Assembly: GCF_002269345.1 (NCBI RefSeq) | Contig: NZ_CP022889.1 | Location: forward strand, 1,922,001-1,986,000 | Direction: 5' to 3' | Source: Tsuneonella mangrovi | GTDB lineage: Bacteria > Pseudomonadota > Alphaproteobacteria > Sphingomonadales > Sphingomonadaceae | Length of the DNA: 64,000 bases | Part shown: positions 2,801 through 24,540 of the stretch, piece by piece | How positions within the stretch are numbered: position 1 is the first letter of the stretch | How the letters are laid out: the number at the start of each line of letters is the position of its first letter | The notes under the pieces: model-generated | Seen by the model: the letters and a program-made list of their open reading frames with translations, nothing else | What the model was told of the DNA's origin: nothing | The model's database searches: none | Translations under genes and position numbers: made by a program

Positions 2801-2814
2801 TCGCGACGAATGGC

Positions 2815-3909
2815 GTGCCTGCTGTCCCCGATCTCCTTGTAAACGGTCGTTTCCTGACGCGCGACCCGACGGGTGTTGATCGTGTCGCAACCGAGCTCGT
2901 GCGAGCCTTGGCGCGGAACCGCAGCAACACGGCTTTTCGGATCGATGTAGCGCTGCCTGCCAGTGATCGTAGCGACGATGAGGTTCGCACGGCGCTCGAG
3001 CTCGGCGAGGATAGTCGTGTGTTCCGTTCACGGCTATCCGGTTATGCGTGGGAGCAGGGTGTGCTACCGCGGATTGCGCCGGACCATGTCTTGCTGAGCT
3101 TGTGCAACATCGGTCCCGTCGCGCGTCGTCGACAACTGGTGATGATCCACGATGCGCAGGTTTTCGACGTGCCAAAATCCTATTCGCGCGCCTTTCGCCT
3201 TGGCTATCAGGCAATCCTGCCGTTATTGGCGCGCCGTGTCCGTTGGCTGGCGACAGTGTCGTCCTATTCACGCGAACGATTGGCAGCCAACGGAATCGGT
3301 GCCGGACGATCGATTGCGGTGGTGCCCAACGGGGTTGACCATCTGGATGCCGTTTGCGCCACCCCTGACGCGGTGCGCCAGCATGGTCTCCATCCAGGCG
3401 GATACTTTCTCGTTGTCGGCAGTGCCGCGCCGCACAAGAATCTGGCAATGTTGAGCCGTGCCAATGCCATGCGGTCAAACCCGGGAATGCCGATTGCCGT
3501 CGTAGGCGAGGAAAATCCGGCGATCTTCGGCCATTCGGACGGTCGCGCACGGAATGACTTCGTATCACTTGGGCGAATCAGCGACGCCGAACTGAAGGGT
3601 CTTTATCGGCAAGCGCGGGCGCTGTTGTTCCCTTCGGTGACGGAGGGGTTTGGCCTGCCTGCCTTGGAAGCAATGCGCTGCGGCGTCGCAGTGATCGCCT
3701 CCGACGGCGGTGCAATACCTGAGGCCTGCGGCGACGCGGCGCTGTATTGCCGGCCTAGTGATCATGTTGCCTGGGCTGCTGCGATGGATCGCCTGGCGAC
3801 CGATACGACCCTTGCAGCAGAGCTTGTCGATAAAGGGCAAGCACAGGCAGCGCATTTCACCTGGGATTCCAGTGCACGCCGCTTGCTGGACATTCTCTCT
3901 GCGAATTGA
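2815..3909 (+). CDS. Family 4 glycosyltransferase
   Basis: GT-B fold glycosyltransferase of the GT4 family (about 364 residues). The C-terminal nucleotide-sugar site is clear: GSAAPHKNLAML, then EGFGLPALE, the EX7E motif of retaining GT4 enzymes, followed by VAVIASDGGAIPE. The open frame reaches back to TTG 2755 inside the previous gene, but GTG 2815 is preferred because it follows the upstream stop at 2800 and begins directly before the conserved first strand (LLVNGRFLTRDPTGVDR). The ribosome binding site is weak for either choice. It probably extends the exopolysaccharide repeat unit together with the preceding GT2. The RDPTGVDRV segment resembles the N-terminus of the mannosyltransferase-like GT4 group; sugar specificity remains unknown. 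Confidence 0.85.
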   Translation: MPAVPDLLVNGRFLTRDPTGVDRVATELVRALARNRSNTAFRIDVALPASDRSDDEVRTALELGEDSRVFRSRLSGYAWEQGVLPRIAPDHVLLSLCNIGPVARRRQLVMIHDAQVFDVPKSYSRAFRLGYQAILPLLARRVRWLATVSSYSRERLAANGIGAGRSIAVVPNGVDHLDAVCATPDAVRQHGLHPGGYFLVVGSAAPHKNLAMLSRANAMRSNPGMPIAVVGEENPAIFGHSDGRARNDFVSLGRISDAELKGLYRQARALLFPSVTEGFGLPALEAMRCGVAVIASDGGAIPEACGDAALYCRPSDHVAWAAAMDRLATDTTLAAELVDKGQAQAAHFTWDSSARRLLDILSAN

Positions 3910-3981: not shown

Positions 3982-5553
3982 TCATGAACCCGGGCTTCCT
4001 GAGTTCGGGGGAATTATTGCTGTTCCATCGATAATCCGGGTCTTTCCGACTATTTCATCGATCGTGGGCGGGTGAAACGGGCCCAGCAGAAGCGAATCGT
4101 GATCGTCAACGTCCGTCAGTAGATTGGCATCTTGCAGAATCGGCAGTGGTTGCGTCGATCCGCGCTGGATCAAATAGACGTTCGCTCGCGTGGAAATTGC
4201 CAATTTCCCGTTCGGTGTGCTTGGGATCGGAGGGTTATACCCGGTTCCCCAGTTGGCCGATTGCGGTGTGGCCGAAGAAATGCCGATTATCGGAAACGGG
4301 CATGAGCTTCGGCGCAATTCGAGCGAACACGCCTCCTTTGCCGCGACAGCTTCCGGCCCACTTGTTACGATAAGCACGCCATTGGGGTCATGGGCCATGG
4401 TAGTGATTGCGCTGCGCCAGTCTTCCCATAGATAATCAGAATGCCTCGCGAGGTTGACTAGAAGCAAAAACGTGATGCCAACTGTTGAAACAACGTAAGC
4501 TTGATTTTTTTTAATGCTGCCAATGGCAGCGGCCGACAGCGTAATTGGAAACAAGCTCATCCACAGTAAAGTTCTATCTATTATTATATTTTGCTTAAAG
4601 CTGACTGCTAGATACGTGATGACGCTGACGGCCAAGCAGGTCATAATGAATTTTGTTGCGACGTTTGAGCGAGTGCGAATAATGCCGATCATTGCCAATA
4701 AGAGAACTATGAATGCAGTTCCTGTGGACCGGCGACCAAGAAGCGTACTGCTAAAAAGTAATTTTAAATACTCAAGTATCCCGGGGCGATGCATCCATGC
4801 GAGGAGGCTGTTTGGGGTCTTTGTCTGCAGGTACGTTATATAGATCCACCATGCCGCACAGACAAATATTGCGGTATCGGTTGCTATAAGGATAGCGAAA
4901 CGTCTGCCGCTTGCTGGGCGGAATCGTTTGTCAACCAGCATTAGGCTCAGCGTCGCGATCGCGGGCCAAAACAGAGCGGTAGTGTGGAGATAAATGGCCG
5001 TAGCGGCGCCAGCGCCATAGGCAATCCATGCAAATGTCGGCTCTCGCTCGACTGGCGCATTCGCAGTGATAATTCTCAGCAAGCCAGCGAACGATACAGA
5101 CAGTGCCAGAAACAAGAAGCTGTAGGTGCGCACTTGCACCGCATAATCGATCTGCTGCGCGGACACTGCGACCATTAGTGCGGCAGCCAGTGCGGCTTTC
5201 TTTCCGTAGATTGGTTTGATGCCGAAAAACAAGGCTGGAGCAGCGAGGGCACTTGCGACAATTGACGGGAAGCGGAGCATTGTCGCTCCGCTCATAGGCC
5301 CGACAAGGGCCATCCATCCATGTAGTATAGAATAGAAGAGCGGAGGATTGGTTTCTCGTACCATCCATTCGCTCCACAATTGGCTCAGTGGCAAAGATCC
5401 GAAGAAAACTGACGCGTATTCATCAAACCAAAACGAATGGCTGGAGAAATATAAACGTAAGGCAAGCGCAAATATGAAAATACCAGATAATACCAAATAT
5501 ATTATCTTTCTGTTATCATATCGAAGGTTATGCAATACGCTATTATGAGCCAC
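3982..5553 (-). CDS. GT39/ArnT-like integral membrane glycosyltransferase
   Basis: Polytopic membrane protein of 523 residues related to dolichyl-phosphate-mannose/ArnT-type (PMT_2, GT39/GT83) transferases, which move a sugar from a polyprenyl phosphate donor to an extracytoplasmic acceptor. After the first membrane segment comes FWFDEYASV with the conserved Asp-Glu of the family, then TNPPLFYSILHGW, the second signature of the first large periplasmic loop. About ten hydrophobic segments follow, then a soluble C-terminal tail from about residue 370. It is transcribed opposite to the two preceding transferases and is the only gene here with clearly AT-rich stretches (4490-4900 and 5400-5660), suggesting more recent acquisition. 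It could add a side sugar to the exported polymer or to lipid A. Substrates are unknown. Confidence 0.75.
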   Translation of the reverse strand: MAHNSVLHNLRYDNRKIIYLVLSGIFIFALALRLYFSSHSFWFDEYASVFFGSLPLSQLWSEWMVRETNPPLFYSILHGWMALVGPMSGATMLRFPSIVASALAAPALFFGIKPIYGKKAALAAALMVAVSAQQIDYAVQVRTYSFLFLALSVSFAGLLRIITANAPVEREPTFAWIAYGAGAATAIYLHTTALFWPAIATLSLMLVDKRFRPASGRRFAILIATDTAIFVCAAWWIYITYLQTKTPNSLLAWMHRPGILEYLKLLFSSTLLGRRSTGTAFIVLLLAMIGIIRTRSNVATKFIMTCLAVSVITYLAVSFKQNIIIDRTLLWMSLFPITLSAAAIGSIKKNQAYVVSTVGITFLLLVNLARHSDYLWEDWRSAITTMAHDPNGVLIVTSGPEAVAAKEACSLELRRSSCPFPIIGISSATPQSANWGTGYNPPIPSTPNGKLAISTRANVYLIQRGSTQPLPILQDANLLTDVDDHDSLLLGPFHPPTIDEIVGKTRIIDGTAIIPPNSGSPGS

Positions 5554-5696
5554 TTCATATCCCTTAGAGATAATTTGTTTGTAAGTAATTCAAGGTGATT
5601 GATCTTAACATTCTTATCGTGTGGAATTATATTATTATTTCTCCAATCAGTTTTCGAACTGAGCGCAGATTTCCGAATCCGTCTGCGTGACTTGCT

Positions 5697-6620
5697 TTAT
5701 GAAGGTGGCCCACTGGATATGTTGGGACCCCGGTGAATGGAGAGACCCGGTCCAGCCGATCTCCTCTGCTGAAGTAGCCACTCAAAATTCTCGCGCGTAT
5801 AAACCTGAGCCCTGATGTCGTGCCCCGCCCCGCGCAATTCCTTGTAGCGCGCAAGCGCGCCAACCTTGCGCAAGCTTGCTGCCAATTCACGGCTGTTGGC
5901 GACGGGCGTAGTGGTGTCGGCGCTTCCGTGAAAGAAACGAATTGGCAGCTTCCTGACCCTGTCCATCGCGCGCGGGTCACCCGCTCCATTCAGGATCAAG
6001 GCCGCAGCGAACAGATGCGGGTAATATGTTAGGGCGTCCCAGCTCCCCTCTCCGCCCATCGACATCCCAGTCAGGTAGATACGCGACGGGTCGGCGTGAT
6101 ATTTGCGGGAGACATCTCGCAGCAAGTCGATCGCTGTCTTGATATTCTCGCTTTCAGGGATCACGCGTTGGTCGAAATTGGTGAAGGGTGGGTCGAAGCT
6201 GGGATAGTTCACCCAGTGAGTGCGGATGCCCGCCTGTGGGGCGAGGACCATGACCGGCTCAATCCCCTGCAAAGTGTCGGAGAGCAGATATTGCACGCTT
6301 TCATCGAGCTGGCCGAGATTGTCGTCGCCACGGCCAGGACCGCCATGGAGAACCAGAATTATCGGCAAGCGCTTTGGGCTTCCACCGGCGCCGGGCGGGA
6401 CATACAACCGCCAAGGCATTACGTTGCCTGAGACAGGATCGGTAAATACGCCTGCCACCATGCGCGAAGCGAGCGAACGCTGCCTGCTTGTTTTCTCTAT
6501 CTTGTGGATGACCGGTTTGAAGGCGACGAGGCACGCCGCTGCCGCAACAGCCAGGGCTGCACTCACGGCGAGAAGCGGTAATTTCTTGCTCAACGATTTG
6601 CTCACGACGTGATCGATCAA
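5697..6620 (-). CDS. Membrane-anchored alpha/beta hydrolase (esterase/PHB-depolymerase-like)
   Basis: Alpha/beta hydrolase of 307 residues with an N-terminal hydrophobic anchor or uncleaved signal at about residues 13-32, so the catalytic domain should lie in the periplasm. It resembles esterases of the LpqC/PHB depolymerase group. The oxyanion region is LVLHGGPGRG, the nucleophile elbow is GMSMGG, the acid lies in HGSADTTTP and the histidine in GAGHD. The start is TTG at 6620, with GGTAAG a few bases upstream; a GTG at 6605 is an alternative. It begins 16 bases after the NRPS stop codon on the same strand, so the two are almost certainly one operon. Enzymes of this fold include acyltransferases, so it may release or transfer the NRPS product; that is inference. 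Confidence 0.75.
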   Translation of the reverse strand: MIDHVVSKSLSKKLPLLAVSAALAVAAAACLVAFKPVIHKIEKTSRQRSLASRMVAGVFTDPVSGNVMPWRLYVPPGAGGSPKRLPIILVLHGGPGRGDDNLGQLDESVQYLLSDTLQGIEPVMVLAPQAGIRTHWVNYPSFDPPFTNFDQRVIPESENIKTAIDLLRDVSRKYHADPSRIYLTGMSMGGEGSWDALTYYPHLFAAALILNGAGDPRAMDRVRKLPIRFFHGSADTTTPVANSRELAASLRKVGALARYKELRGAGHDIRAQVYTRENFEWLLQQRRSAGPGLSIHRGPNISSGPPS

Positions 6621-6636
6621 AACAGCTTACCGGCAA

Positions 6637-9600
6637 CTATCGGTTGGCAGCCGTCGGCGTCAGAACTCGCGCCTGAGGGGCAAACTCCTGCCGTTCATGT
6701 CCTTGCTCCTCGCCAAGCCCAAGTGCATCGCCGACAATCCTTGCCAATGCCTTTGCCTTTTCGCCCAGAAACATTTCGAGGTGGCCGGCCATCATGATGC
6801 GGACATCGACATCGCCTTCGGAAAACTCGCCCCACCCTCGTTCAACAATCTCCATCCCGTCACCGTAGGTGGCTTTAGTGGGCAACGGGCGCCTGACAAA
6901 AATAAGCGGAGCGCGCAGCCGATATTGGGGCCGGTAAATTCGATTTGCTTCCCACAATCGAGGAAATACTTCCTCCATTCCATGGTCCGGAATAATGTCC
7001 CAATTGGACATTGCGAATTTCAGTTCCCCCGCGAAAAGCCGATCGCCGGAGCGCACAGCTTTCTTTGCGGCGGCAAAACCGCGGGTCAAAATATCGCGCC
7101 AGCTCTTGGAACGAATGACCCGCAGCCGGTCTAGGAACTTCGATGCGAGCTTCTGCTTCGGGGGAAAGCCCGGGGCCGGCATGTCCATCGATATGAACCC
7201 GAGCAAGGGCTTGTTCAGGCTCTCAAGCTGTCGGGCAATTTCGAAGGCGACGCGCGCGCCCATAGAATAGCCGCTGGCGATGACAGGACCCTCAGGGCAA
7301 ATATTCTCAAGCTCGGCAACATACTTCGCGGCGATAGCCTCGAAGGTCGTCGGCAGTTCGTCGATATCGTCCACTCCGAACGGCTTGAGGCCGTAAACAG
7401 TCGCTTCGAAAGGCAGAGCCCGAGCAAAATTCAGGAACGAGAAAACGTGCCCGCCAGCGCCGGCAACCAGAAGCAAGACGGGTGATCCTGGCGCGCCCCT
7501 TCTAAGAGGTACGAAGACTGTGTTCACAGGGGTGAAGTGCTGGTTGATGGCTTCCGCAATGCGCTGGATTGTCGGTGCCTGTAGGAGGACATCCGGCGAG
7601 AATGAGTATCCAAACTGCGCCCTTATCCGCACCATTAGACTTGCTGCGGACAGTGAGGTGCCACCGAGATCCTGAAAGGAGTCGGTTATGCTGACCTTGT
7701 CGATTGCGAGAATCTCCATCCACATATGTGCCAAGATCTTCTCGGTCTCATTCCCTGGCGCCACGTAATCGCTGCCCACCGCTTCCAGGTCGGGAAGATA
7801 TGTCGGATCAGGCAACGCCTTCCGGTCCACTTTGCCATTTGGCGTGAGAGGAAGTGTTTCCAGCCCCATGTAGGACGATGGAATCATGTAATCTGGCATA
7901 CGTTCGCGCGCGAACGAACGAAGCGCATCGACGTCAATCGTCTCGCCCGTGCTGGCGAGCAGATAGGCCACAAGACGTTTTTCGCCCCCCTTGTCATTCC
8001 GCGCCACCACCACGCATTGCTTGACGGCCGGATGAGCTTCAAGATGGGTTTCGATGTCACCCAGCTCTATGCGGAATCCGCGCAGTTTGACCTGGTTGTC
8101 GATGCGACCGAGGAAGCGGATATCGCCGCTTGCCTGCCGCACGACGAGATCGCCGGTTCGGTACAGGCGTTCTCCCGGCGCGAAAGGATGGTCGATGAAC
8201 TTCTCGCGGGTCATCTCGTCCAGAGCGAAGTAGCCGCGGGCAAGCCCGTCGCCGCCAATGAGCAACTCACCCGGAACACCGACGGGCTGCAGCTCCAGAT
8301 CCGGGCTGCAAATCAGGAAGGATGTATTCGCAATCGGATAGCCGAGATTGATGGCGTCCTCCTGCGCCCTAACTCGGCGGACCGAGGACCAGATGGTGGT
8401 CTCAGTCGGTCCATACAGGTTCCAGACTTCGCACCCGGTAGCAACAAGCTGGCCTGCCAATTCCAGCGACATCGCTTCACCGCCACACAGCACCTTGATC
8501 GGCGGATCACCACGCCAGCCCTGATCCAGCAACATGCGCCAGGTCACTGGCGTGGCCTGCATGATCGTGGTGCCTGTCTCTTCCATGCTGGCGAGCAACA
8601 ACTCGGGATCGAGTGCGAGCTTCTGGGACTTGATCACCACCTGCGCACCGCAGATGAGCGGCAAGAAGAGCTCGAGCGCAGCGATGTCGAAGCAAATCGT
8701 AGTCAGGCTGTGCAATACGTCGCTGCGCCCGATGCCGGGTTCGTGCCGCATCGATTCCAGGAAATTCACGAGACCGCGGCGGACGACCTGCACCCCTTTG
8801 GGTCGGCCGGTAGAACCGGAGGTATATATTACATAGGCAAGATCATCGAGGCTGCCGGTCGGCGGCTGATCCGAGGCGTCTCCCTCCTCCAGACGCGGAT
8901 CGTTTGCTTCTAGCAGGACGGTTTCCGCTTCAACAGGTCCAAGCCGATCCACCACTCCGGGCTGGGAGATACAGACTTTGGCGCGGGAATTTTCCACCAT
9001 GTAGTGAAGGCGATCGACCGGGAAGGTGGGGTCCAGCGGGACGTATGCTCCCCCCGTTTTCATGACTGCGAGCAATGCGACCACGAGATCGGGGGAACGC
9101 TCCATGCAAACAGCGACGAGTTCGCCGGGCCCAACGCCCATTCCGCGAAGTCGCGCCGCCATTCGGTTGGCGCGAGCATTCAGCGCGGCGTAAGTTAGCG
9201 CAACGTTCTCGCCGATCACGGCGGGTGCATCTGGCGTGACTGCCGCCTGTTGTTCCACGAGTTGGTGCGGATGCAACTCCGGGAATTGCGTGGCGGGTGG
9301 ATTCCAGTCATGCAGCAGGGCTTCCCGCTCAGCGGCGTCGAGCATGTCGAGCATTGCCACCGGTATGTCGGGATTTTCGATCGCCCTGCCCATCAACGCG
9401 ATATAGTGAGCTGCTATCCGTTCGGCGCTGGCGTGCTCAAACAGATCGCTGCTGTATTCGAGCGTCCCCGACATGCGCTCGCCTTCCTCAAGCATGGACA
9501 GCGTGAGGTCGTACTTGGAGCCCCCCGTATGGAGCGGGACCCGAGAGAGCCTGAGGCCCGGGATTTCCCAGCGGCTGTGGGTATTGTTGCGATGAATGAA

Positions 9601-12591
9601 CAGGTGTTGGAAGAGCGGTGCATCGGCGCGTGAGCGCGGGAACTCGAGTTCTGCAACAAGATCTTCAAAGGGAAGCTCGTCATTGCTGAACGCATCGATA
9701 GTCACCTGCCGCATTTGCGCCAGCAGCCCCCGGAAGGTGAGGCCCGGTGTGAAACGCGCCCGCAAGACAAGATTGTTGATGAAGAGGCCAATCATGTCCT
9801 CCGTCTCGGCCAGGTACCGTCGCCCGGTTGGCGTGCCGATGAGGATGTCATCCTGCTGCGAATAGCGATGCAACAACATTTGCCAGCAAGCCATCAACGC
9901 CATGAAAGTCGTCGCCGATTCCGCTCTTGCAAAATCCGCAATCGCATTCGCCAGGTCGGAGGGTACCTGGAAAGCGACCTGCCCGCCCTTCAGCGAAGGC
10001 ATATCCGGGCGCAAATGGTCGCCCGGTACCTGCAGCGGTTCCGGCAGGTTGGCCAGTTGCTGCTTCCAGTAGGCAATCTGGGACTCCAGTTGGCTGTTGC
10101 TTGCCCGCTCGCGCTCCCAAACTGCATAGTCGGCAAACTGGTGCGCGAGTGGTGCCAAGGGAGATTGCGCTTCCCCGCTCGCAAAGGCGGAATACAGCGC
10201 GCCGAGTTCACGGAAGAAGATGCCGGAGGACCAGATATTGTCGTAAACGATGTGGTTGAACACCAACACCAGGATCGCGCTTTCCGGCCCCAGGCGCAGC
10301 AAGGCGCTCTGGAACAGGGGCCCGCGCTCCAGATCATGCTGGTGTTGCAGCAACTGCTTGGCCCGTGCCTGCCAGCGTGCCTCCTGCTCATCGGTCGGCA
10401 GGTCGCTAAGATCAATAACGTCCAGCGGCATTGGCGCCGCCGGGAGCACTTCCTGCCAAGGTTCCCGTTCGCCCTGCGGGAAGCGTGTGCGCAGCACTTC
10501 ATGGCGCTCGACGATTTCGCTTAGCGCCCGCTCCAGCGCGGCTACGTCCAGCGACCCGTCGAGGCGCACGGTGTTGCTGATATTGTAGGCCGAATTGCCT
10601 TTGCTCAGCATATCGACAAGCCACATCCGGCGCTGCGCCAGACTCACGGGCTGGCGATCTAATCGCGGAGCAGTCGATAGACGTGGCGTGATACCGGCGA
10701 CACGCGAATCGGCGTCGCGGATGATTTCGGCGATCGCTTTGAAATCGGGCGCTTCAAACACCTGGCGCATATCAAGCCGAACGCCAAAGCGGTGTTGTAC
10801 GCGGGCGATCAACCGGGTGGCTGATAGAGAATGGCCGCCAAGGTCGAAGAAGTTATGGTTGGTTCCGACGTCGCCCGCGCGCAGCAAGTCACTGGCGATT
10901 TCCAGCAAGCCGAGTTCCACGTCATCGACCGCAGGCACCGGAATGTCGTTCTGCAGCAAATTTCCCGGCAAGGGCGCGGGCAAAGCCAGTCGGTCGACCT
11001 TGTTGTTCGGCGTCCGCGGCATGGCGTCGAGCCTGACAAAGATCGTCGGTGTCATGTAATACGGAAGGCGGCGTTGCAGCCGCTGGCGCAGACTTCGAAC
11101 GCTGAAGTTCTCGGCACCTGCCTCAGTCACCAGATAGGCAACCAGTTGTTGCTCATCGCCTATCTCGCGGGCAACCACTGCCGCCTCGCTTATACCAGGA
11201 TGGTCGTGCAAGGCGGTTTCGACTTCGCCGACCTCGACGCGGAATCCGCGGATCTTGACCTGGAAATCCTTGCGACCGCGGTGCTGCAACAGCCCGTCGG
11301 CCCGCAGTTCACCCATGTCGCCTGTGCGATAAGTGCGTAGTTGGGAATCGTCCGGCGCGGCTTCGAACACCTTGGCCGTTGCTTCTGCATTGTTCCAATA
11401 GCCCAGCGCCAGATACGGGCTGCGCACGGTAATTTCACCGATCTCGCCAACGCCGACGGGCTGGCCATCATCGCCCCGCAGCACGATCTCCATCCCCTCG
11501 ACCGGGTAGCCGATCGGGACTGTGGCGTCGTCCAGCTCGGTCTTTGGACCGATATAGAAGTAGCGGATCGTACCTGTCTCGGTCGAGCCGAGGCCGGTAT
11601 AGAATTCGACCTGGTGCCCAAAGACTTCGCGAGCCAATTCCACGTCGGAGGTCAGCACGCGCTCGCCGCCGAAGACAGCAAGTCTTACGCGAAGCGCCGC
11701 CGATCCGCGGGGATAACTGGCAGCGAACTGCCGGAACACCGAAGCGACCGAGTGATAGATAGTGATGCGATGATCCGCGAGCCATTCGCCGAGTGCATCC
11801 ACGCCGCGTTCGCGGAAGTCATATGGGAACAGCGCGGCCCCGTTCAGCAGCGCGCCGAAAATGCAATAGACCGATCCCATGACGCTGCACGAATAGAACA
11901 GGGTCATGCGATCCTCGACGGTGACCCGCTGCAGCCGGGTCCGCCGCATACAACCATGCAACGTGTTGCGCTGGTTCTGCATCACCCCCTTGGGCTTGCC
12001 GGTCGAACCGGAGGTGTAGACGATATAGGCCAGCGCGTCCGGCGAGATGTCGATTTCCGGATTGTGATCCGACCCGGCCGGCAACGTATCGATATTGATC
12101 ACGCGCGCGTTGCCCGCGGAGAGGTTCTCCGCCATCTCCAAGTTGCGCGAGTTGGTGACCACCACCGTCGCTTGCGAGTCTTCGACGATGTATGTGTTGC
12201 GGCTCTCAGGGAATGCCGGATCGACTGGGACATAGGCGTGCCCAGCTTTCAGCACGCCAATGATTGCAGCAACGCATGTGGATCCGTTCTCTATGCAGAC
12301 GATCACTCGCCCGGCAGCGTCAGAGTGCAGCGTATGGGCCAGCCGATTTGCGAGCCGATTGAGTTCCTCATATGTCAGAGAAAGCTGTTCGTCGCTGACC
12401 GCCAACCGATGCGGCGTGCGCTCGACTTGCTGCTCGAAACATTCGGCAATCGATTGCTCGATGTCCATCAATGCGGCCGGTTCGGCGAGATCAGCAGCGA
12501 AGCGCGTCGGGACCGCATCGACAGTGTATCCGTCGATGGCCTGATCGATCATCCGAGAGGCGGTCGGCCTCCTTTCGGACCGTTCCCCCAT
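6637..12591 (-). CDS. Dimodular nonribosomal peptide synthetase, A-T-C-A-T-TE
   Basis: NRPS of about 1984 residues. Order of domains: adenylation A1 (about 45-535), carrier T1 (LGGHSLSA, Ser588), condensation C (646-1075), adenylation A2 (1118-1593), carrier T2 (LGGTSLSA, Ser1646), thioesterase (about 1700-1950, nucleophile in GYSMG, Ser1776, His1937 in AGHLEMF). Both A domains keep the phosphate loop (YTSGSTGKPKG, YTSGSTGRPKG) and the A10 lysine. A2 reads D-I-L-Q-L-G-L-I-W for its binding pocket, the code I know for glycine. A1 has Met where Asp235 should be, so it probably does not use an ordinary alpha-amino acid. The C motif is NHIVYDN rather than HHxxxDG. There is no starter C domain. 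The ATG at 12591 is chosen because AAAGGCGAG precedes it; the frame is open to 12732. The predicted product is an acyl- or aminoacyl-glycine made beside exopolysaccharide genes. Confidence 0.9.
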   Translation of the reverse strand: MGERSERRPTASRMIDQAIDGYTVDAVPTRFAADLAEPAALMDIEQSIAECFEQQVERTPHRLAVSDEQLSLTYEELNRLANRLAHTLHSDAAGRVIVCIENGSTCVAAIIGVLKAGHAYVPVDPAFPESRNTYIVEDSQATVVVTNSRNLEMAENLSAGNARVINIDTLPAGSDHNPEIDISPDALAYIVYTSGSTGKPKGVMQNQRNTLHGCMRRTRLQRVTVEDRMTLFYSCSVMGSVYCIFGALLNGAALFPYDFRERGVDALGEWLADHRITIYHSVASVFRQFAASYPRGSAALRVRLAVFGGERVLTSDVELAREVFGHQVEFYTGLGSTETGTIRYFYIGPKTELDDATVPIGYPVEGMEIVLRGDDGQPVGVGEIGEITVRSPYLALGYWNNAEATAKVFEAAPDDSQLRTYRTGDMGELRADGLLQHRGRKDFQVKIRGFRVEVGEVETALHDHPGISEAAVVAREIGDEQQLVAYLVTEAGAENFSVRSLRQRLQRRLPYYMTPTIFVRLDAMPRTPNNKVDRLALPAPLPGNLLQNDIPVPAVDDVELGLLEIASDLLRAGDVGTNHNFFDLGGHSLSATRLIARVQHRFGVRLDMRQVFEAPDFKAIAEIIRDADSRVAGITPRLSTAPRLDRQPVSLAQRRMWLVDMLSKGNSAYNISNTVRLDGSLDVAALERALSEIVERHEVLRTRFPQGEREPWQEVLPAAPMPLDVIDLSDLPTDEQEARWQARAKQLLQHQHDLERGPLFQSALLRLGPESAILVLVFNHIVYDNIWSSGIFFRELGALYSAFASGEAQSPLAPLAHQFADYAVWERERASNSQLESQIAYWKQQLANLPEPLQVPGDHLRPDMPSLKGGQVAFQVPSDLANAIADFARAESATTFMALMACWQMLLHRYSQQDDILIGTPTGRRYLAETEDMIGLFINNLVLRARFTPGLTFRGLLAQMRQVTIDAFSNDELPFEDLVAELEFPRSRADAPLFQHLFIHRNNTHSRWEIPGLRLSRVPLHTGGSKYDLTLSMLEEGERMSGTLEYSSDLFEHASAERIAAHYIALMGRAIENPDIPVAMLDMLDAAEREALLHDWNPPATQFPELHPHQLVEQQAAVTPDAPAVIGENVALTYAALNARANRMAARLRGMGVGPGELVAVCMERSPDLVVALLAVMKTGGAYVPLDPTFPVDRLHYMVENSRAKVCISQPGVVDRLGPVEAETVLLEANDPRLEEGDASDQPPTGSLDDLAYVIYTSGSTGRPKGVQVVRRGLVNFLESMRHEPGIGRSDVLHSLTTICFDIAALELFLPLICGAQVVIKSQKLALDPELLLASMEETGTTIMQATPVTWRMLLDQGWRGDPPIKVLCGGEAMSLELAGQLVATGCEVWNLYGPTETTIWSSVRRVRAQEDAINLGYPIANTSFLICSPDLELQPVGVPGELLIGGDGLARGYFALDEMTREKFIDHPFAPGERLYRTGDLVVRQASGDIRFLGRIDNQVKLRGFRIELGDIETHLEAHPAVKQCVVVARNDKGGEKRLVAYLLASTGETIDVDALRSFARERMPDYMIPSSYMGLETLPLTPNGKVDRKALPDPTYLPDLEAVGSDYVAPGNETEKILAHMWMEILAIDKVSITDSFQDLGGTSLSAASLMVRIRAQFGYSFSPDVLLQAPTIQRIAEAINQHFTPVNTVFVPLRRGAPGSPVLLLVAGAGGHVFSFLNFARALPFEATVYGLKPFGVDDIDELPTTFEAIAAKYVAELENICPEGPVIASGYSMGARVAFEIARQLESLNKPLLGFISMDMPAPGFPPKQKLASKFLDRLRVIRSKSWRDILTRGFAAAKKAVRSGDRLFAGELKFAMSNWDIIPDHGMEEVFPRLWEANRIYRPQYRLRAPLIFVRRPLPTKATYGDGMEIVERGWGEFSEGDVDVRIMMAGHLEMFLGEKAKALARIVGDALGLGEEQGHERQEFAPQARVLTPTAANR

Positions 12592-12743
12592 TCTATCTCG
12601 CTCGCCTTTCGATATGGAACCGTAAATCCCAGCCACGATTGAGTCGTCTACCTCCCGATCCTGTTTGTAGCGCTTGCGCGGGTGATCGCCTCTAACGCCA
12701 CTGCATCTGCGGCAAGCCCGATGGCAGCCCAAGACTGAACTCT

Positions 12744-13793
12744 ATGTCGGCGAACCGTAAGGCGAAATTACCAATCAGAAGGGGGCATCGCGCGCTGGGC
12801 GGTGGCCAACTAACCCAAGTGGGTAGGCCCTCGTTACGCCCTATGCCCGATTGTGCTTGGCGAGCGGTTTGCGAGACTTGCGCCGAGATGCTCATCGGCA
12901 CACGACATTGCGCGGCTTTGCCACTTGTCCCCGGTGCTCTGCCGGTTGGACACAATTCGCCGGATACGGTGGAGACTACTGGAACGGCGGAGCGGTTCGG
13001 GTTCCAGACAATCTGTGAGGTTCCCGCTGGGTATGCCGCTTCTTGGGCCGTTCGGGCGACGAGCGGTCAATCGTTTCGGACTCGGATTCTGCGCGATCCG
13101 GCGCAAGTGACAGGCATTTTGCCACCGGAGGGCGAGGTTTGGCTGGCGCTTGCGGTTCCGGACGATTCGATGCGGGAAATGCTGTCGGCATTATCGGACG
13201 AAGAAGCCGAGCGCATTGCGCGGTTTCGTCATGCGCCTGACCGTTGGAGCTTTTTTTCCGCACATGGACTGCTGCGTAGCTACATGGCTGCTATGCTGGA
13301 TTGCGCCCCACAAGACTTGCGCTTCAGCGGTGAAGGCAAGGCAGGCAAGCCATTGCTGGACCCTGAATTTGCGGCGCGGCAGCCCGAGCTGGAATTCAAC
13401 ATGAGCCATACGCGGGGGTTCGTCGCAGCAGCATTCGCAAGTTCGCCAATCGGGGTTGATGTCGAGCGGGTATGTCCAATCCCCGAAATGCGCGATCTCA
13501 TTGCCGATCTGATGCACCCAGTGGCGCTCAGCGCTTTCGATGCCGAAACCGACGCAGGCCGTCAGACTGCGCTGTTCTTTCGCTATTGGACGTTGAGCGA
13601 GGCATTCCTCAAAGCCACAGGGGAAGGCTTGACCGAAACGACGCGGGATCTTGCGTTCAATGCTACGGGTACGCCGCGATTGCGCGCGGCGGCAGGAGGG
13701 GACGCGCCGGAAATCTGGCACTTTGGACATGTATCGGACGGGTGCGAGGACTGGCTGCGCGCTCCAACTCCGAATGCGGCAATCGGGCAATGA
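12744..13793 (+). CDS. Sfp-type 4'-phosphopantetheinyl transferase
   Basis: Transfers the phosphopantetheine arm of coenzyme A to carrier-domain serines, here most plausibly Ser588 and Ser1646 of the neighbouring NRPS. The Sfp-family core shows GVDVERV (magnesium-binding Asp) and the ACPS signature WTLSEAFLKATGEGL, preceded by NMSHTRGFVAAA and RWSFFSAHGLLR. The frame is open from 12744 (349 residues), but the family core begins near residue 125 and the usual length is 220-250 residues, so GTG 13107 (229 residues) is a strong alternative start; neither has a convincing ribosome binding site. It is divergent from the NRPS. Its stop codon overlaps the flippase start as ATGA, so it is translationally coupled to polysaccharide export. 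The identity is secure, the start is not. Confidence 0.85.
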   Translation: MSANRKAKLPIRRGHRALGGGQLTQVGRPSLRPMPDCAWRAVCETCAEMLIGTRHCAALPLVPGALPVGHNSPDTVETTGTAERFGFQTICEVPAGYAASWAVRATSGQSFRTRILRDPAQVTGILPPEGEVWLALAVPDDSMREMLSALSDEEAERIARFRHAPDRWSFFSAHGLLRSYMAAMLDCAPQDLRFSGEGKAGKPLLDPEFAARQPELEFNMSHTRGFVAAAFASSPIGVDVERVCPIPEMRDLIADLMHPVALSAFDAETDAGRQTALFFRYWTLSEAFLKATGEGLTETTRDLAFNATGTPRLRAAAGGDAPEIWHFGHVSDGCEDWLRAPTPNAAIGQ

Positions 13794-15334
13794 CGGGAAC
13801 GCCCATCGCGCGCGGCGGGTCGGTGCGCAAACAGGTTGCCGCAGGTGCCGCGACGCTCACGGTCGCACGGATGCTGTCGCGCGGTTTCGACATGATCACA
13901 CTGATCATCCTCGCGCGCCACCTGACACCGGCGGATTTCGGGCTGGTTGCGATTGCGCTTTCAATCGTACAGATCGCCGAAGCCGTGCTCGACCTGCCGA
14001 CCGGCAGCGCGCTCCTGCAGCTGCCTTCGGTAACGCGGCATCACCTCAATACGACCTTCACGCTCAATCTGCTGCGCGGACTGGCGTTGATGGGCTTTCT
14101 GTGCGCCGTCTCCTATCCGGCATCCTTGTTTTTTGGCGATCCGCGGCTCGTCGGACTGATCTGTGCGCTCTCGCTTGCACCTGCTTTGCGCGGCGTGCGC
14201 AGTCCGAAGATGGAGCTGCTGTACAAACGATTGCGGTTCCGTCCCGATGCGACCGCAGAGATTGTCGGTAAGGCTGCCGCACTCTCGATTGCTGTGCTCC
14301 TTGCGCTGGAAACCGGGAGTTATTGGGCGATAGCCGCGGGCACAATCGCGAGCCCGCTGTTATACATGGCGACGACGTACGTGTTGGCTCCGGCTCGACC
14401 TCGCCTCAGTTTGCGCCACTGGCGTGCATTCCATCGTTATCTCGGTTGGTCGATGGGCGCTCAGGCGATGAGTGCAATAAATTGGCAGGCCGATCGCTTT
14501 GTGCTGGGCAAACTGGCCGCGCAGGCAACGGTGGGCCTGTTTACCACGGGGCGCGATCTTGCCTGGACAGCGAGCAAGATCATTTTCGGATCGCTCCTGC
14601 GACCATTGCTGGCGGCGTTGTCGCGCTCCAATGCGGACCTGGCACGCCAGCGGGCGGTCTATCGGCAGACGATTGCCACGGTCTTGTCGATCGGTTTGCC
14701 GGTCGCGTGCGGGCAGGCATTGCTCGGGCCGGAGATCGTGCGGCTGATCCTCGGTCCGAAATGGCTGTCTACCACGATCGTGTTTCAGGCGGTGTCACTG
14801 GCGCTCATCCCGGGATTCTATACTGGCCTTACGACGTCTTTGCTGTTTGCGAATGGGAAACCCGAACTCATTTTCAGCCGCAATATGTGGGATTTGTGTT
14901 TCCGTATTCCGGTGACAGTGGGGTGCATCGTCTGGCTGGGCTGGAAGGGGGCAGCCGTCGCTCTGCTCGCAGCGGACCTGTTCCTCGCAACGCTGTGTTT
15001 GCAGGTGGTCAAACGGACCATCGGCATTGGGATAGGGGACCAGCTGGCGCAGGCATTGCGCGGCAGCGTCAGCGTAGCGGCGATGATCGTCGTGTTTCTG
15101 GCTTTCCGGGAGGTACTGCCGCCGGCCGAAAGCGCGCTTGGTGCCGCAGGTATCATCGCTCTGATGGTCCCCGTTGCGGCTGTGGTCTACGCCTTTGTTC
15201 ATCTGCTTGTTTGGCGGTTGAGCGGCCGACCGGAAGGAATCGAGCAACTAGGCCTGCATCTTGCTGGATCACTCGCGGCCCGCTTCCTTGCCGGCTCGAG
15301 CGATGGACGCAGCATGACGGCAAGCGAGCGATGA
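13790..15334 (+). CDS. Wzx-like polysaccharide flippase
   Basis: Integral membrane protein of 514 residues of the MOP/PST flippase superfamily (Polysacc_synt type), which moves undecaprenyl-linked repeat units to the periplasmic side of the inner membrane. It has the repeating hydrophobic helices of the family, about 12-14 in number, and the typical N-terminal segment ending ARHLTPADFGLVAIALS. Charged loops carry GRDLAWTASKI in the middle and the chain ends in a polar tail. The ATG at 13790 overlaps the phosphopantetheinyl transferase stop (ATGA), and its own stop overlaps the next glycosyltransferase start the same way, so the three genes form a coupled operon. The frame extends further upstream but only inside the transferase gene. 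Confidence 0.88.
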   Translation: MTGTPIARGGSVRKQVAAGAATLTVARMLSRGFDMITLIILARHLTPADFGLVAIALSIVQIAEAVLDLPTGSALLQLPSVTRHHLNTTFTLNLLRGLALMGFLCAVSYPASLFFGDPRLVGLICALSLAPALRGVRSPKMELLYKRLRFRPDATAEIVGKAAALSIAVLLALETGSYWAIAAGTIASPLLYMATTYVLAPARPRLSLRHWRAFHRYLGWSMGAQAMSAINWQADRFVLGKLAAQATVGLFTTGRDLAWTASKIIFGSLLRPLLAALSRSNADLARQRAVYRQTIATVLSIGLPVACGQALLGPEIVRLILGPKWLSTTIVFQAVSLALIPGFYTGLTTSLLFANGKPELIFSRNMWDLCFRIPVTVGCIVWLGWKGAAVALLAADLFLATLCLQVVKRTIGIGIGDQLAQALRGSVSVAAMIVVFLAFREVLPPAESALGAAGIIALMVPVAAVVYAFVHLLVWRLSGRPEGIEQLGLHLAGSLAARFLAGSSDGRSMTASER

Positions 15335-16263
15335 GGGGGACTTTCGAAGTCGTTGCGGTGGCGCTCGAGCCGCGCGAGCGGATGGAACGCTTCGCGGGCT
15401 ACTACCTGTCGCAAGGGGCTAGCCGGGTCTCGATCTATTTCGATCGTGACGAGCGCCATGATTTCGCTGATCCGCGTATTACGTTTCGTCCATGCTGCGC
15501 CGATTTCTGGCGGGACCTGACCGGCGACAAGCCGGAGAGCGTGGAACTACGCCAGCGGGCGATCTACCGCATGGCCTATGGCCAATGTGAAGCGGACTGG
15601 TGCCTGTTCGTCGATCTCGACGAGTTCGTCTCAGGTGCCATGCGGCTCGATCGGTTTTTTGCGCAGGTCCCGGAGGAATCCCCCAGCGTCCGGTTCGAGA
15701 CGGCAGAGGCGGTGTTCGGTCCCGGCGACGAAATCGCGATGGCGTATGGTGCAACGCACTTTCGCACACCAATTGCACGACTGGCGGCGCCGGTCCTGGC
15801 ACGGGTACTTTATGGCCCGCTCGCCAGTCACTACTCACGCGGATTGCTCGGTCATTCGCGTGGCAAGCAGGCACTACGCAAAGGCCTGAAGGATCCGCAG
15901 ATTGGAATCCACGATACGGTCATCACGGGACGACGGATCGGATCGTTCGCCCTAAGCCGCGCGGCGGGGCTGTGGCTAGCGCACTACGACGCGATCGATT
16001 TCTCGCATTGGGAAGACAAGTTTGCACGGCGGTTGGCAAGGCAGGACGCGCATGAGATGGGCGTCAAGCGCGAACGACAAATCGCCCGATTTGCGGAGTG
16101 TTCGACCTTGCGCGACCGCGAAGATCTGTTTCGCCGGTTCTATTCATTGAATGGCTGGCAGGCGAGGTTGCTCAAGATGCTGGGCTTGCTGCATCGAGAT
16201 CCGCATCCGACGGGCGAGAATCCAGCGGCCGATCATATCGCAAGGGCCGGTTTGTCGTCCTAG
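15331..16263 (+). CDS. Glycosyltransferase, GT2_4/GT92-like
   Basis: Putative glycosyltransferase of 310 residues of the Glyco_tranf_2_4 type (PF13704-like). The N-terminus GTFEVVAVALEPRERMERF followed by YYLSQGASRVSIYFD is typical for this group, and CLFVDLDEFV at about residues 90-99 contains the DxD-like metal motif. The C-terminal half contains GLLGHSRGKQ and a histidine-rich segment (LAHYDAIDFSHWEDKF), also common in the family. The start ATG at 15331 overlaps the flippase stop codon, so it is translationally coupled to it. It ends 40 bases before the convergent Wzy-like gene. It probably decorates or extends the exopolysaccharide repeat unit; the sugar is unknown. Confidence 0.8.
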   Translation: MRGTFEVVAVALEPRERMERFAGYYLSQGASRVSIYFDRDERHDFADPRITFRPCCADFWRDLTGDKPESVELRQRAIYRMAYGQCEADWCLFVDLDEFVSGAMRLDRFFAQVPEESPSVRFETAEAVFGPGDEIAMAYGATHFRTPIARLAAPVLARVLYGPLASHYSRGLLGHSRGKQALRKGLKDPQIGIHDTVITGRRIGSFALSRAAGLWLAHYDAIDFSHWEDKFARRLARQDAHEMGVKRERQIARFAECSTLRDREDLFRRFYSLNGWQARLLKMLGLLHRDPHPTGENPAADHIARAGLSS

Positions 16264-16302: not shown

Positions 16303-17766
16303 TCAGTGTGTCCGGATCGCCCGCGACTCATGGGTTAGGCGAGGGGCTTCGATCGACGCTTCCGTATCTTCGAGTGGGCCGTCATCGGTGCGCCGCTTGC
16401 GCGGTCGAAGTGCGATTGCAGCGCCTGAAAATAGCGCGAAAGCCACCCCAGGGTCCGGCTTGGGAGCGGACACAGAATTGGGGATCTGCATAAGAAGTGC
16501 GGAAGCGGCAAAGGCGCCGCCGACGCTCAATTCGGCCAGGCGAACACCTCCGTAAGTGGATCTGCGCAGCGGCTGGAACACCCGAAAGAAATAGAGCATC
16601 ATCGACACCGTGCCGACGATACCCGTCGCTCCCAGGACCGCGGTTAGGAAACTGGACGAGCGGAAGCTGCCCGGCCCGATCCCGACACCGTAGGATGCCT
16701 TGAATGCATCCCATCCCTGTACCGCCCAGAACAGCCGTTGTTGCGCCGATTCCGAGCCTGGTTTGTCGACCGTCATCGAGCGGACGACGTCGAGGAATTG
16801 CAGTGGCAGGGCGGGGATCGACAGCAACAGGATTGCAAGCATGACCGCAATGCCCAGCGTCGCCGCGCCGAACTGCACCAACCGAATTGCGTTGGCCGTG
16901 CCCGGCAGCACGATCGCCCTCCCGACAAACCAAACGAAGTAGCCGGCGAGTCCGACGTAGGCGGTTGACGATGTGCTAAAGAACAGCGCCGTTGCAAGCA
17001 TTAACGCCACTGGCCCGGTCGCTTGCGGGCGGATGGAACGGTACCACAGCTCGGCATTGAGCACGAACCAGGTGAAACCAAACCCGGCATATGCGGAGGC
17101 TTCGGGCATCAGACCGCGCATCCGTACGAAACCCTGATACGACTGGTTGAGTTGAGCATAGTTGCCGTTGCGGAACAGGTCGAAGAAGGCGTGGAGCGGG
17201 GTGCCATGCGCGGCAAGCACTGCGAGCCCGAGTATCACGTGAAGCCAGCCTACCGCTATTGCCGCGCTGATCAGGGTCTCTGTTCCGCCGCGGCAATAGC
17301 GATTGAAGACGAACGAGCTGCATGCGGCCAGCAGTGTACCCAACAGGTAGAACGCCGAAGTGAAGTTCTGTGAGCTGGGTCCGAGGAGCGTGGTGGCAAA
17401 CAGGTCCGCCGAAGGAAGGGGCTGTAACGGGGCTACCTGCATGGATCCGGCGAAAATCCGGGGGCCGAGATAGGCCAGAACGACACCATAGACGACATAG
17501 ACCACTAGCCAAAGATTGGCCCGTATCGCTTCGGGGATCACATTCAGGTAGCCGGCTGACGGTGCGAGCATACGCAGCAACACGAATAGTAAGGCGACCT
17601 GCATCGGGGGTATCGAGGAACCGCCGAGCGCAGGCAGCAGGATCGCCGCCGAGCCGCCGAACAAGCCCGAGATAACCAGCATTACGAAGGCGCTGCGCAG
17701 TGAACCCGCCAGCAGGATTGCCAGTCCTATGGCAATCTCGATCGCGCCGATGAAGGTCAGTTGCAT
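16303..17766 (-). CDS. Wzy-like O-antigen polymerase/ligase family membrane protein
   Basis: Polytopic membrane protein of 487 residues with about 11-12 hydrophobic segments and a large periplasmic loop around residues 320-370 (containing RLFWAVQGWDAFKASYG and GIGPGSFRSSSFL), the arrangement of Wzy polymerases and WaaL-type ligases. The segment GWDAFKASYGVGIGPGSF corresponds to the conserved loop seen in Wzy_C proteins. The last 40 residues are charged and cytoplasmic. It is seven bases downstream of a GT4 gene and in one minus-strand operon with that gene and the Wzc-like kinase. In this context a polymerase for repeat units flipped by the Wzx protein is most likely. Sequence alone does not distinguish polymerase from ligase. 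Confidence 0.72.
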   Translation of the reverse strand: MQLTFIGAIEIAIGLAILLAGSLRSAFVMLVISGLFGGSAAILLPALGGSSIPPMQVALLFVLLRMLAPSAGYLNVIPEAIRANLWLVVYVVYGVVLAYLGPRIFAGSMQVAPLQPLPSADLFATTLLGPSSQNFTSAFYLLGTLLAACSSFVFNRYCRGGTETLISAAIAVGWLHVILGLAVLAAHGTPLHAFFDLFRNGNYAQLNQSYQGFVRMRGLMPEASAYAGFGFTWFVLNAELWYRSIRPQATGPVALMLATALFFSTSSTAYVGLAGYFVWFVGRAIVLPGTANAIRLVQFGAATLGIAVMLAILLLSIPALPLQFLDVVRSMTVDKPGSESAQQRLFWAVQGWDAFKASYGVGIGPGSFRSSSFLTAVLGATGIVGTVSMMLYFFRVFQPLRRSTYGGVRLAELSVGGAFAASALLMQIPNSVSAPKPDPGVAFALFSGAAIALRPRKRRTDDGPLEDTEASIEAPRLTHESRAIRTH

Positions 17767-17773
17767 GGAGCGG

Positions 17774-18919
17774 CTATCCCAACATCCCGCCTACGAATTC
17801 GCGGAACTTGCGGTCGAACACCTCGGGCGCAAAGTGGCGTGCCCGGGCGACCGAATCCGCCGGATCGAAGTGATGCTCGAATGCGTCGAACCTCTCGATG
17901 GCAGCTTGCAAGGTCTCGGGCTCCTGCCGATCGAAGAACAGCCCCGTGCTTTGATCGACCACGCTGTCGAGTATGCCGCCGCGCCCGAAGCCGATTACCG
18001 GGCGACCCGCAGCCATCGCTTCGACCGGCGTAATGCCGAAGTCTTCTTCCGCAGTCATAACGAAGGCCCGCGCCTGTGCGTATGTCCTGCGCAACGAAGC
18101 AAAATCCATTCGTTCGACGAACCGTATGTTGGGCTTCGCCTTCGCGCGAAGGCGTTTGGTCATCGGGCCGGTGCCGACCATCAGAAGGGGCAGGCCGTTC
18201 GCATTGAATGCATCGACTGCAATGTCGGGGCGCTTGTAGGAAACCATCTGGCCGACCCACAGAAATTCCTCGCCGACTTCTTGTGTCGGTTCGAACTGCG
18301 CGACTTCGACCGGCGGATGGATCACGTCAGCTTCGCGCCGCCAGACCTTGCGGATTCGTTGCTGAATGAATTTGGAGTTGGCCGCGAAGCCGTCGACCAG
18401 TGCGGAGGAGGTCACGTCCCACTTGCGCATCCGGTGATAAAGCGGTGGCATCGCGAGGCGGGCAATGGGGTTCGCTGCGCTTTTGTAGCCGTGGTAGTGA
18501 TCCCACAGGTAACGCATCGGCGAATGACAATAGCAAACGTGGGTGCTGCCCGGGTCGGTGATCACGCCTTTGGCCGGCCCGGACTCGCTGCTGATTACCA
18601 AATCGTAGCCGCTGAGGTCGAGCTCCTCCAGCGCCATTGGCATCAGAGGAAGGTAGTATTGGTAAAGCCTCTTCGAAAATGGGAGCTGGGCGATGAAGGT
18701 CGTCGAGACCCTGGCATTGCGAATACGCGCCGACATACGCTCGCGGTCGTAGACGTGACAAAACAGATCGGCGCCGGGATAAAGGCCCAGCATCCGGTCG
18801 ATTACCCGCTCGCCCCCACGCATCGTCAACAGCCAATAGTGGACGATCGCCACCCGCGGCTCGGAGAAGGGCCGGATCGCGCGCAGGACGGCCGGAGCAG
18901 CGATCCGGCTCACCTCCAT
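17774..18919 (-). CDS. Family 4 glycosyltransferase
   Basis: GT-B glycosyltransferase of 381 residues. The N-terminal domain opens with VAIVHYWLLTMRGGERV, the glycine-rich acceptor loop of GT4 enzymes, followed by CYCHSPMRYLWD. The C-terminal donor domain has FLWVGQMVSYKRPDIAV and EDFGITPVEA, the EX7E motif. It resembles the GT4 group often next to wzc in sphingomonad and rhizobial exopolysaccharide loci. Its start codon shares a base with the stop of the upstream Wzc-like gene (TGATG), and the Wzy-like gene follows after seven bases, so the three are co-transcribed and probably translationally coupled. It should act on the cytoplasmic face during repeat-unit assembly. Donor sugar unknown. 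Confidence 0.87.
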   Translation of the reverse strand: MEVSRIAAPAVLRAIRPFSEPRVAIVHYWLLTMRGGERVIDRMLGLYPGADLFCHVYDRERMSARIRNARVSTTFIAQLPFSKRLYQYYLPLMPMALEELDLSGYDLVISSESGPAKGVITDPGSTHVCYCHSPMRYLWDHYHGYKSAANPIARLAMPPLYHRMRKWDVTSSALVDGFAANSKFIQQRIRKVWRREADVIHPPVEVAQFEPTQEVGEEFLWVGQMVSYKRPDIAVDAFNANGLPLLMVGTGPMTKRLRAKAKPNIRFVERMDFASLRRTYAQARAFVMTAEEDFGITPVEAMAAGRPVIGFGRGGILDSVVDQSTGLFFDRQEPETLQAAIERFDAFEHHFDPADSVARARHFAPEVFDRKFREFVGGMLG

Positions 18920-21051: not shown

Positions 21052-21112
21052 GTTCGCGCTCCTTCTGCTTCGCACATTGCTGGTATGACAGCGAGGTGGT
21101 CGAACGGGCGGT

Positions 21113-24387: not shown

Positions 24388-24540
24388 CCCCAAGAAGCCC
24401 GCGTCTTGTTAGCTGAAATGTCCCAAAATTGTGCATTTGCGAACATTTTCTTGAGTGAATCGGGCAAAGGAGTTAACTCTTAATTAATCCTGTTCGCTGT
24501 GAGTCGCGGCCGCCTTCTCCTCCTCGGGGAAAGTAAAAAA

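Follow-up and report, generated by a model that had tools for sequence, protein, structure and literature searches.

Why should a nonribosomal peptide synthetase (NRPS) and a phosphopantetheinyl transferase (PPTase) lie inside an exopolysaccharide (EPS) locus? The question is raised by a 64,000-nucleotide stretch of the Tsuneonella mangrovi genome (the window; positions 1,922,001-1,986,000 of a closed genome of 2.70 Mb). The EPS locus starts ~1.9 kb before the window and extends to ~25.3 kb within it, and its ~27 kb amount to 1% of the genome. In our reading, to which we assign a probability of about 0.6, the function of the NRPS here is to decorate the polymer, with an N-(2-oxo- or 2-hydroxyacyl)-glycyl group put on the repeat unit. 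An earlier note on this DNA had proposed that the NRPS product modifies the polysaccharide; that the NRPS is part of the EPS locus is strongly supported by ATGA coupling and recurrence, while we infer that its product is covalently on the polymer.

The proteins of the window were scanned against Pfam and NCBIfam family models, and hydrophobic segments were predicted for some of them (Table 1). The NRPS contains two AMP-binding, two PP-binding, one Condensation and one Thioesterase stretch in the order adenylation (A), carrier (T), condensation (C), A, T, thioesterase (TE), which bears out the six-domain architecture read earlier. Modules of A, T and C domains, carrier serines, a release domain and a glycine code in the second A domain (A2) are shared with modular (type I) NRPSs, from which this line differs in lying within an EPS locus and in having no MbtH or dedicated exporter among the open reading frames (ORFs) scanned. 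It is the only gene of the genome with a condensation domain. The divergent PPTase gene, likewise confirmed by its PF01648 match, has one counterpart in the genome, AcpS, which lies behind pyrE and a pdxJ-like frame (names by reading). Since the sole condensation-domain gene and the sole PF01648 gene other than AcpS fall in the same 1% of the genome, their placement goes beyond chance. Downstream, the PPTase gene overlaps the gene of the Wzx flippase by an ATGA at 13790, and Wzx overlaps a family 2 glycosyltransferase (GT2) in the same way at 15331 (the program-listed starts at 13472 for Wzx and 14323 for GT2 are too early). This placement of the PPTase in one operon with a flippase and a glycosyltransferase is direct, structural evidence for assigning the assembly line to the polysaccharide.

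The pocket codes of the two A domains allow a prediction of the product. The nine positions read in A2 match the code DILQLGLIW(K), which we take to be that of glycine, and support glycine as the predicted second unit. In the first A domain (A1), a methionine stands in place of the amine-binding Asp235, and a serine replaces the proline of the GPTE motif (GSTE). According to published descriptions, A domains for alpha-keto and alpha-hydroxy acids have an aliphatic residue instead of Asp235, and in StsA the conserved GPTE proline is a methionine (PMC11253843, PMC10949194, PMC5238615); the role of this proline is treated in PMC11253843. A1 shares with the alpha-keto acid domains of StsA and CesA the aliphatic residue at 235, the replaced GPTE proline and glycines at 236 and 301, and differs in that its module has no ketoreductase and in that its code, MGYHVGGTI, is unlike any of those tabulated (PMC11253843, PMC5238615, PMC10949194). 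Without the amine-binding Asp, an acyl first unit is favored over an aminoacyl unit; A1 would probably take an acid without an alpha-amino group, i.e., a 2-oxo or 2-hydroxy acid, and an aryl or fatty acid seems less likely. A ketoreductase, though typical of depsipeptide synthetases, is not among the Pfam matches of the NRPS, so that a 2-oxo- or 2-hydroxyacyl-glycine is predicted. Of the acyl- or aminoacyl-glycine group envisaged earlier, the glycine is therefore retained on the A2 code, and the first half is narrowed toward acyl. Such chemistry has precedent, as sugars carrying N-acetylglycyl and N-(3-hydroxybutyryl)alanyl groups are known from bacterial polysaccharides (PMC3210612). These are acyl-amino acid groups as expected from an acyl-glycine line; they are known from O-antigen structures, and no assembly line was seen connected with them.

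The closest kin of A1 likewise lack Asp235: an A-T protein on a Nostoc plasmid (41.6%, by eye) and a planctomycete NRPS (37.6%). On the plasmid of Nostoc sp. UHCC 0926 (L162:17725-28873), the A-T without Asp235 is followed by C-A-T-C, with a Thr-type code in the second A domain as read by eye, and by three glycosyltransferases in a row. The planctomycete protein (L002:537-6410) has the order A1-T-C-A(Gly)-T, and a C-terminal Hexapep domain (left-handed beta-helix type) replaces the TE. This kind of domain is found in sugar acyltransferases, and the protein may be a one-protein acyl-glycyl transferase.

Related EPS loci carry a different line at the same place. When the 396 genomes of the order were searched with Wzx, the best matches outside the genome itself were found in G211 (50%) and G269 (49%). 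The EPS locus of G269 is the same, and at the NRPS position it has a line divergent from PPTase and Wzx (gap between these two, 7 bp), composed of A-T, ketosynthase (KS)-acyltransferase (AT)-acyl carrier protein (ACP)-aminotransferase-C-A-T and C-TE proteins plus an alpha/beta hydrolase. The aminotransferase domain of this polyketide synthase (PKS)-type line was found in 4 of 119 genomes of genus g110 (G269, G708, G374 and G627) and in one of 397 family genomes (G526, genus g73), and all five have their line within the same EPS locus, together with a homologous PPTase. The arrangement in G627 is nearly that of the window, including the order PPTase-Wzx-GT2 (a 12 bp gap between the first two genes, a 4 bp overlap between the last two). 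The first A code of the PKS-type lines is of a kind that we assume to be Val-like (5/5), the second is DALWLGGTF in four of the five, and the TE nucleophile is a cysteine throughout. Four of the five relatives (G269, G708, G526 and G374; G627 is the exception) have a secreted-type hydrolase 3' of the line; that of the window is of a different alpha/beta-hydrolase family.

The C-TE proteins, which have neither A nor T (L081:12558-14864 and counterparts in G526, G708, G374 and G627), all have the cysteine nucleophile and vary at the second His of the HHxxxDG motif (H in G526 and G374, Q in G269 and G708, P in G627); they are possibly an acceptor-binding C domain with a transferring TE. A Cupin_8-like protein stands at the end of a PKS-type line (L098:16324-17313; 22.2 bits, below cut-off), with homologues in G374 and G627, and is perhaps a hydroxylase of the bound chain.

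In a PPTase tree, the six EPS-locus PPTases of the family (window and five relatives) form one clade (support 96/98), but no single clade unites all 12 EPS PPTases tested (3 changes). The C-A-T-TE part of the NRPS is nearer to Leu/Gly synthetases of genus g108 (~37%) than to the PKS-type lines. Because the NRPS is nearer g108 while the PPTase falls in the EPS clade, the assembly line was probably exchanged within a kept EPS chassis, with a keto- or hydroxyacyl-Gly dimodule as the cassette here and a PKS-aminotransferase-NRPS cassette in relatives. In the Wzx tree, five of six assembly-line loci fall together with G211 in one clade (SH-aLRT 99), and in the Wzy-like tree all six do so, again with G211 (92). 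This clustering is weak evidence, since linkage could produce it and the result for Wzc, with only 2 changes, is similar. We dropped the Wzx/Wzy phylogeny as proof of function for these reasons and because G211, which has assembly-line-type Wzx and Wzy-like proteins (L078 and L079), is without a line. Read by eye, G211 has a DegT-like aminotransferase and an N-acyltransferase-like gene in place of the line, which would fit an ordinary N-acyl sugar standing in for the group made by an assembly line.

Beyond the family, the aminotransferase domain has 50 matches on named plasmids at E<=1e-60, and 19 of these share 54-62% identity with it (15 rhizobial records, Rhodobacter sp. CZR27, two of Loktanella salsilacus and Jannaschia sp. 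M317). Neighborhoods were read for 11 of these 19, by annotation or, for the unannotated L167, L174-L176 and L178, by tblastn with Rhizobium sp. SL42 genes, and all 11 are EPS loci with a PPTase, which adjoins a DegT aminotransferase in the rhizobial loci and a CocE/NonD hydrolase in those of Rhodobacter and Loktanella. The remaining eight records have a Wzy-like match 8.1-8.3 kb from the aminotransferase domain. Among the 31 records below 54%, four were read: Aliiroseovarius M344 is in an EPS locus, whereas those of Variovorax WDL1 (one glycosyltransferase, three TIGR04325 methyltransferases), Spirosoma and Agrobacterium tumefaciens (a siderophore-type cluster) are not. With 11 of 11 close neighborhoods in EPS loci against one of four distant ones, the PKS-aminotransferase-NRPS branch goes with EPS and distant ones need not.

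These distributions bear on a hitchhiking view, in which insertions gather at EPS loci and the NRPS cassette is mere cargo that has nothing to do with the polymer. In its favor, none of the 10 congeners searched has the NRPS or the EPS locus, an assembly line is missing from most EPS loci of this type, and the lines that occur at the same place differ. The coupling of PPTase, Wzx and GT2, the recurrence in three alphaproteobacterial orders with a PPTase each time, and the retention of a homologous PPTase though the line differs all argue for a functional tie, and we consider mere cargo very unlikely. The recurrence in distant relatives suggests that such assembly lines are used to decorate the polymer.

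For the decoration reading, the following course can be proposed. The locus PPTase, as the only one besides AcpS, would activate T1 and T2; A1 would load an acid without an alpha-amino group, and the C domain would join it to the glycine from A2, in line with the pocket codes. The TE may then transfer the N-acyl-glycyl group either to the undecaprenyl-linked repeat unit or to a sugar precursor, forming an ester with a hydroxyl or an amide with an amine, upon which the coupled Wzx would flip the decorated unit and the Wzy-like protein would polymerize it, while the hydrolase might trim or rearrange acyl groups outside the cytoplasm. In a general form, for which we see even odds, NRPS or PKS-NRPS lines would be exchangeable cassettes of alphaproteobacterial EPS loci, each accompanied by a PPTase of its own; the acyl-amino acid or beta-amino peptide groups that they build would be loaded onto lipid-linked repeat units before Wzx flipping, by the TE or, in relatives, by a degenerate C domain with a Cys-nucleophile TE.

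The nearest complete NRPS by sequence among those examined comes from genus g108 (37% over ~1160 aa), where NRPS, PPTase and flippase lie together and no EPS machinery was detected in about 30-40 kb, so that the flippase may serve the NRPS product. This makes a free small molecule the main rival to decoration: an acyl-glycine or its hydrolysis product, released by the TE, exported perhaps by Wzx and merely co-regulated with EPS, e.g., as a matrix-associated metabolite. The order NRPS-MATE-PPTase-NRPS on a plasmid of Rhizobium CB3060 is also consistent with it, as is a TE whose Ser nucleophile can hydrolyze. In the window, however, a Wzx/Wzy system requires the one flippase that the locus was found to have, and no dedicated exporter turned up (no ABC or MFS type among the 20 locus ORFs scanned); moreover, here and in five relatives glycosyltransferase genes surround the line, which is swapped while the EPS chassis stays. 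We consider a free product unlikely. In G398, G365 and G150 (L047, L048 and L050), an A-T (Leu code), a C-A-T-TE (Gly code), a PPTase and a Polysacc_synt_3 flippase make up a small cluster with no EPS genes detected; in L048 a P450 gene stands beside the A-T.

The product could also act inside the cell, as a regulator or as a primer that modifies the lipid carrier or starts chain growth, rather than decorating each repeat. LuxR-type and other regulators are present at the locus, and in S. meliloti K-antigen production has been linked to RkpA, which resembles a fatty acid synthase. Such a role is not indicated by any acceptor or receptor gene, however, and Wzx/Wzy clades follow the lines as if the repeat unit differed, although linkage could give the same; of the explanations considered here, we hold this one to be the least probable.

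Several observations weigh against decoration of the repeat unit. The C-domain motif is degenerate: in NHIVYDN, the second His and the Asp of HHxxxDG are retained and the first His and the Gly are altered. No enzyme for transfer to a sugar was identified, and the TE could simply hydrolyze. An amino-sugar aminotransferase is likewise lacking in the window locus, where the rhizobial loci possess one, and the one DegT gene of the genome is ~275 kb away. Furthermore, G211 shares the Wzx/Wzy clade without a line, G374 keeps its line with a distant Wzx (29%), Wzc also clusters, and the g108 cluster occurs apart from EPS genes. In a survey of 397 family genomes with the Wzy-like protein, 29 loci were found, including that of the window, and an assembly line was present in two (the window and G526) and not seen in 27, for four of which little DNA was read: G505 (a 5.3 kb contig), G566 (12.1 kb), G072 (20.0 kb) and G588 (20 kb of a 52 kb contig). 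Weak A-like matches in G067, G087 and G436 (61-98 bits, 23-26%) are assumed to be acyl-CoA ligases.

The EPS association of the window NRPS itself comes from one genome, because no orthologue was found. None was found in 147 relatives, and eight other genomes match at E<=1e-100, all partially (30-42% identity). The A1-T query gave no orthologue in the 396 genomes of the order. A scan of 84,980 species genomes, which requires exact 8-residue patterns and can miss distant kin, gave 19 loci and no orthologue among them (<=42% in the best segment). The plasmids yielded none either (876 records, all <60%), the top matches opened being ordinary large NRPS clusters. In 20 kb around the NRPS match in seven of the eight genomes (G109 left out), six had no match to window EPS proteins save the PPTase in two, by a BLAST test that misses unrelated glycosyltransferases. 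A comparison of NRPS neighborhoods, as the earlier note had asked for, is divided: all five positional counterparts are in EPS loci, while the g108 NRPS and the planctomycete L002 are away from detected EPS machinery. In G053 (L051, with flanks L091 and L092), the seventh of the genomes so examined, a formyltransferase-like domain, a Gly-coded A-T (code DILQMGMIW) and KS-AT-KR-ACP-TE (KR, ketoreductase) adjoin a WbaP-type gene; matches resembling Wzx, Wzc, Wza and glycosyltransferases occur within 37 kb, and there was no PPTase match.

Stand-alone A and carrier proteins are known to put amino acids on envelope glycans, as in D-alanylation by DltA/DltC and glycylation by AlmEFG, where AlmE uses glycine. 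The window line shares with these systems adenylation and a carrier protein for an envelope glycan, and glycine with AlmE; it differs by its two modules with C and TE, the EPS locus and the PPTase. A reading as DltA D-alanine ligase was rejected (TIGR01734 equivalog, 456 bits against a cut-off of 559.85). Exosortase/PEP-CTERM EPS loci also have an AMP-forming ligase beside EPS genes, and we know of no multi-module line in them; the exosortase A-associated ligase model was rejected as well (TIGR03098, 421.8 against 592.35 bits).

Among the open-access papers listed in literature searches, no title or abstract opening gives an apparent description of an assembly line in an EPS locus, in line with the earlier note, whose author knew of no such described system; PMC10059132 concerns siderophore plasmids. 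NRPSs and EPS parts are known, and their recurring combination suggests that assembly lines have been put to a new use. If so, modular lines would serve to equip a cell-surface polymer with programmable groups other than sugars instead of making free natural products, two separate fields would be linked, and part of the NRPS/PKS clusters now catalogued as orphan natural-product clusters would be polysaccharide genes; in the general form, assembly lines would be a general way of giving polysaccharides non-sugar chemistry. Recurrence in rhizobia and rhodobacters besides the family of the window makes this testable in workable strains, with a substrate prediction of a 2-oxo or 2-hydroxy acid plus glycine in the window and a Val-like unit plus a beta-amino extension in relatives.

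Table 1. Features of the EPS locus, in window coordinates.
Feature	Position	Strand	Remarks
Cell-wall-hydrolase-like (Hydrolase_2)	207..1481	+	PF07486, 78 bits; tblastn homologues in most kindred EPS loci
Glycosyltransferase family 2-like	1934..2800	+	PF13641 25.2 bits (cut-off 27) and PF00535 21.6 (cut-off 23.3), both below cut-off; kept in kindred EPS loci
Glycosyltransferase family 4 (GT4), start uncertain	2755..3909	+	PF00534, 76.9 bits
Membrane glycosyltransferase-like (PMT_2)	3982..5553	-	PF13231, 29.1 bits; 8 hydrophobic segments
Alpha/beta hydrolase, esterase type, 3' of NRPS	5697..6620	-	PF00326, DLH and others
Dimodular NRPS, A-T-C-A-T-TE	6637..12732	-	Pfam; candidate ATG starts 12591, 12552, 12468
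TE	6742..7476	-	PF00975, 65.5 bits; Ser nucleophile GYSMGA, C-terminal His AGHLEMF
T2 carrier, limits approximate	7549..7755	-	DLGGTSL; second PP-binding stretch
A2	7813..9255	-	DILQLGLIW; presumably glycine
C domain	9313..10656	-	PF00668, 348.6 bits; NHIVYDN where HHxxxDG expected
T1 carrier	10723..10908	-	DLGGHSL; PF00550 at residues 609-670
A1	10981..12468	-	MGYHVGGTI, no Asp235, GSTE for GPTE; non-amino-acid acid predicted
Sfp-type PPTase	12744..13793	+	PF01648, 43.8 bits; start is a candidate, first part of ORF may be untranslated
Wzx flippase	13790..15334	+	PF13440, 173.4 bits; ATGA overlap with PPTase
GT2-type glycosyltransferase (PF13704)	15331..16263	+	31.7 bits; ATGA overlap with Wzx; 47% homologue at same position in G627
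Multi-pass membrane protein, putative Wzy polymerase	16303..17766	-	8 hydrophobic segments; present in 29/397 family genomes including own
Glycosyltransferase family 4	17774..18919	-	PF00534, 67.8 bits; 52-70% in kindred loci where present
Wzc-type co-polymerase with tyrosine autokinase domain	18919..21075	-	PF02706, PF13807, PF13614
Outer-membrane beta-barrel BBP2_2	21113..22510	-	PF10082, 232.7 bits
WbaP-type initiating sugar transferase	22737..23510	-	PF02397, 207.3 bits
Wza-type export protein	23773..24387	+	Poly_export, SLBB
LuxR-type regulator	24499..25251	+	PF00196, 71.2 bits; kept at locus end in many kindred loci

The surrounding locus has the hallmarks of a Wzx/Wzy-type system, i.e., an initiating transferase, Wzx, a co-polymerase/kinase, an outer membrane polysaccharide export (OPX) protein and glycosyltransferases, and the latter flank the NRPS on both sides as described before. 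The cluster had also been called complete: WbaP, Wzx, Wzc, Wza and glycosyltransferases are present, but the Wzy call lacks family-model support, as the putative polymerase has no Pfam or NCBIfam match, yet is a multi-pass protein retained across kindred EPS loci (its single-sequence AlphaFold model was too poor to use, pLDDT 41.6). A GH16 gene and a further GT2 gene lie within 1.9 kb upstream of the window start (L046 18141-19994). Named kin of the locus genes include those on plasmid pSA1 of Novosphingobium resinovorum (GT4 67%, Wzy-like 46%).

The hydrolase 3' of the NRPS had been described as periplasm-facing. It is an alpha/beta hydrolase with a single strongly hydrophobic N-terminal segment (residues 16-34), and from that segment it would be membrane-anchored or secreted, facing the periplasm. 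Among proteins of solved structure, it is closest in sequence to esterases (3doh, 125 bits; LC-Est1C, 94 bits), and its AlphaFold model from a single sequence was too poor to use (pLDDT 47.2).

The GC content per kb is 0.50-0.63 in the EPS locus and 0.61-0.67 to its right, and the 10 congeners have no window NRPS, no close WbaP and no Wzy-like homologue; on both grounds the locus looks acquired. Over 4001-6000, which holds the PMT_2 gene and the hydrolase, the GC content is ~0.50 against ~0.60 for the surrounding locus, suggesting that these two genes are possibly of separate origin.

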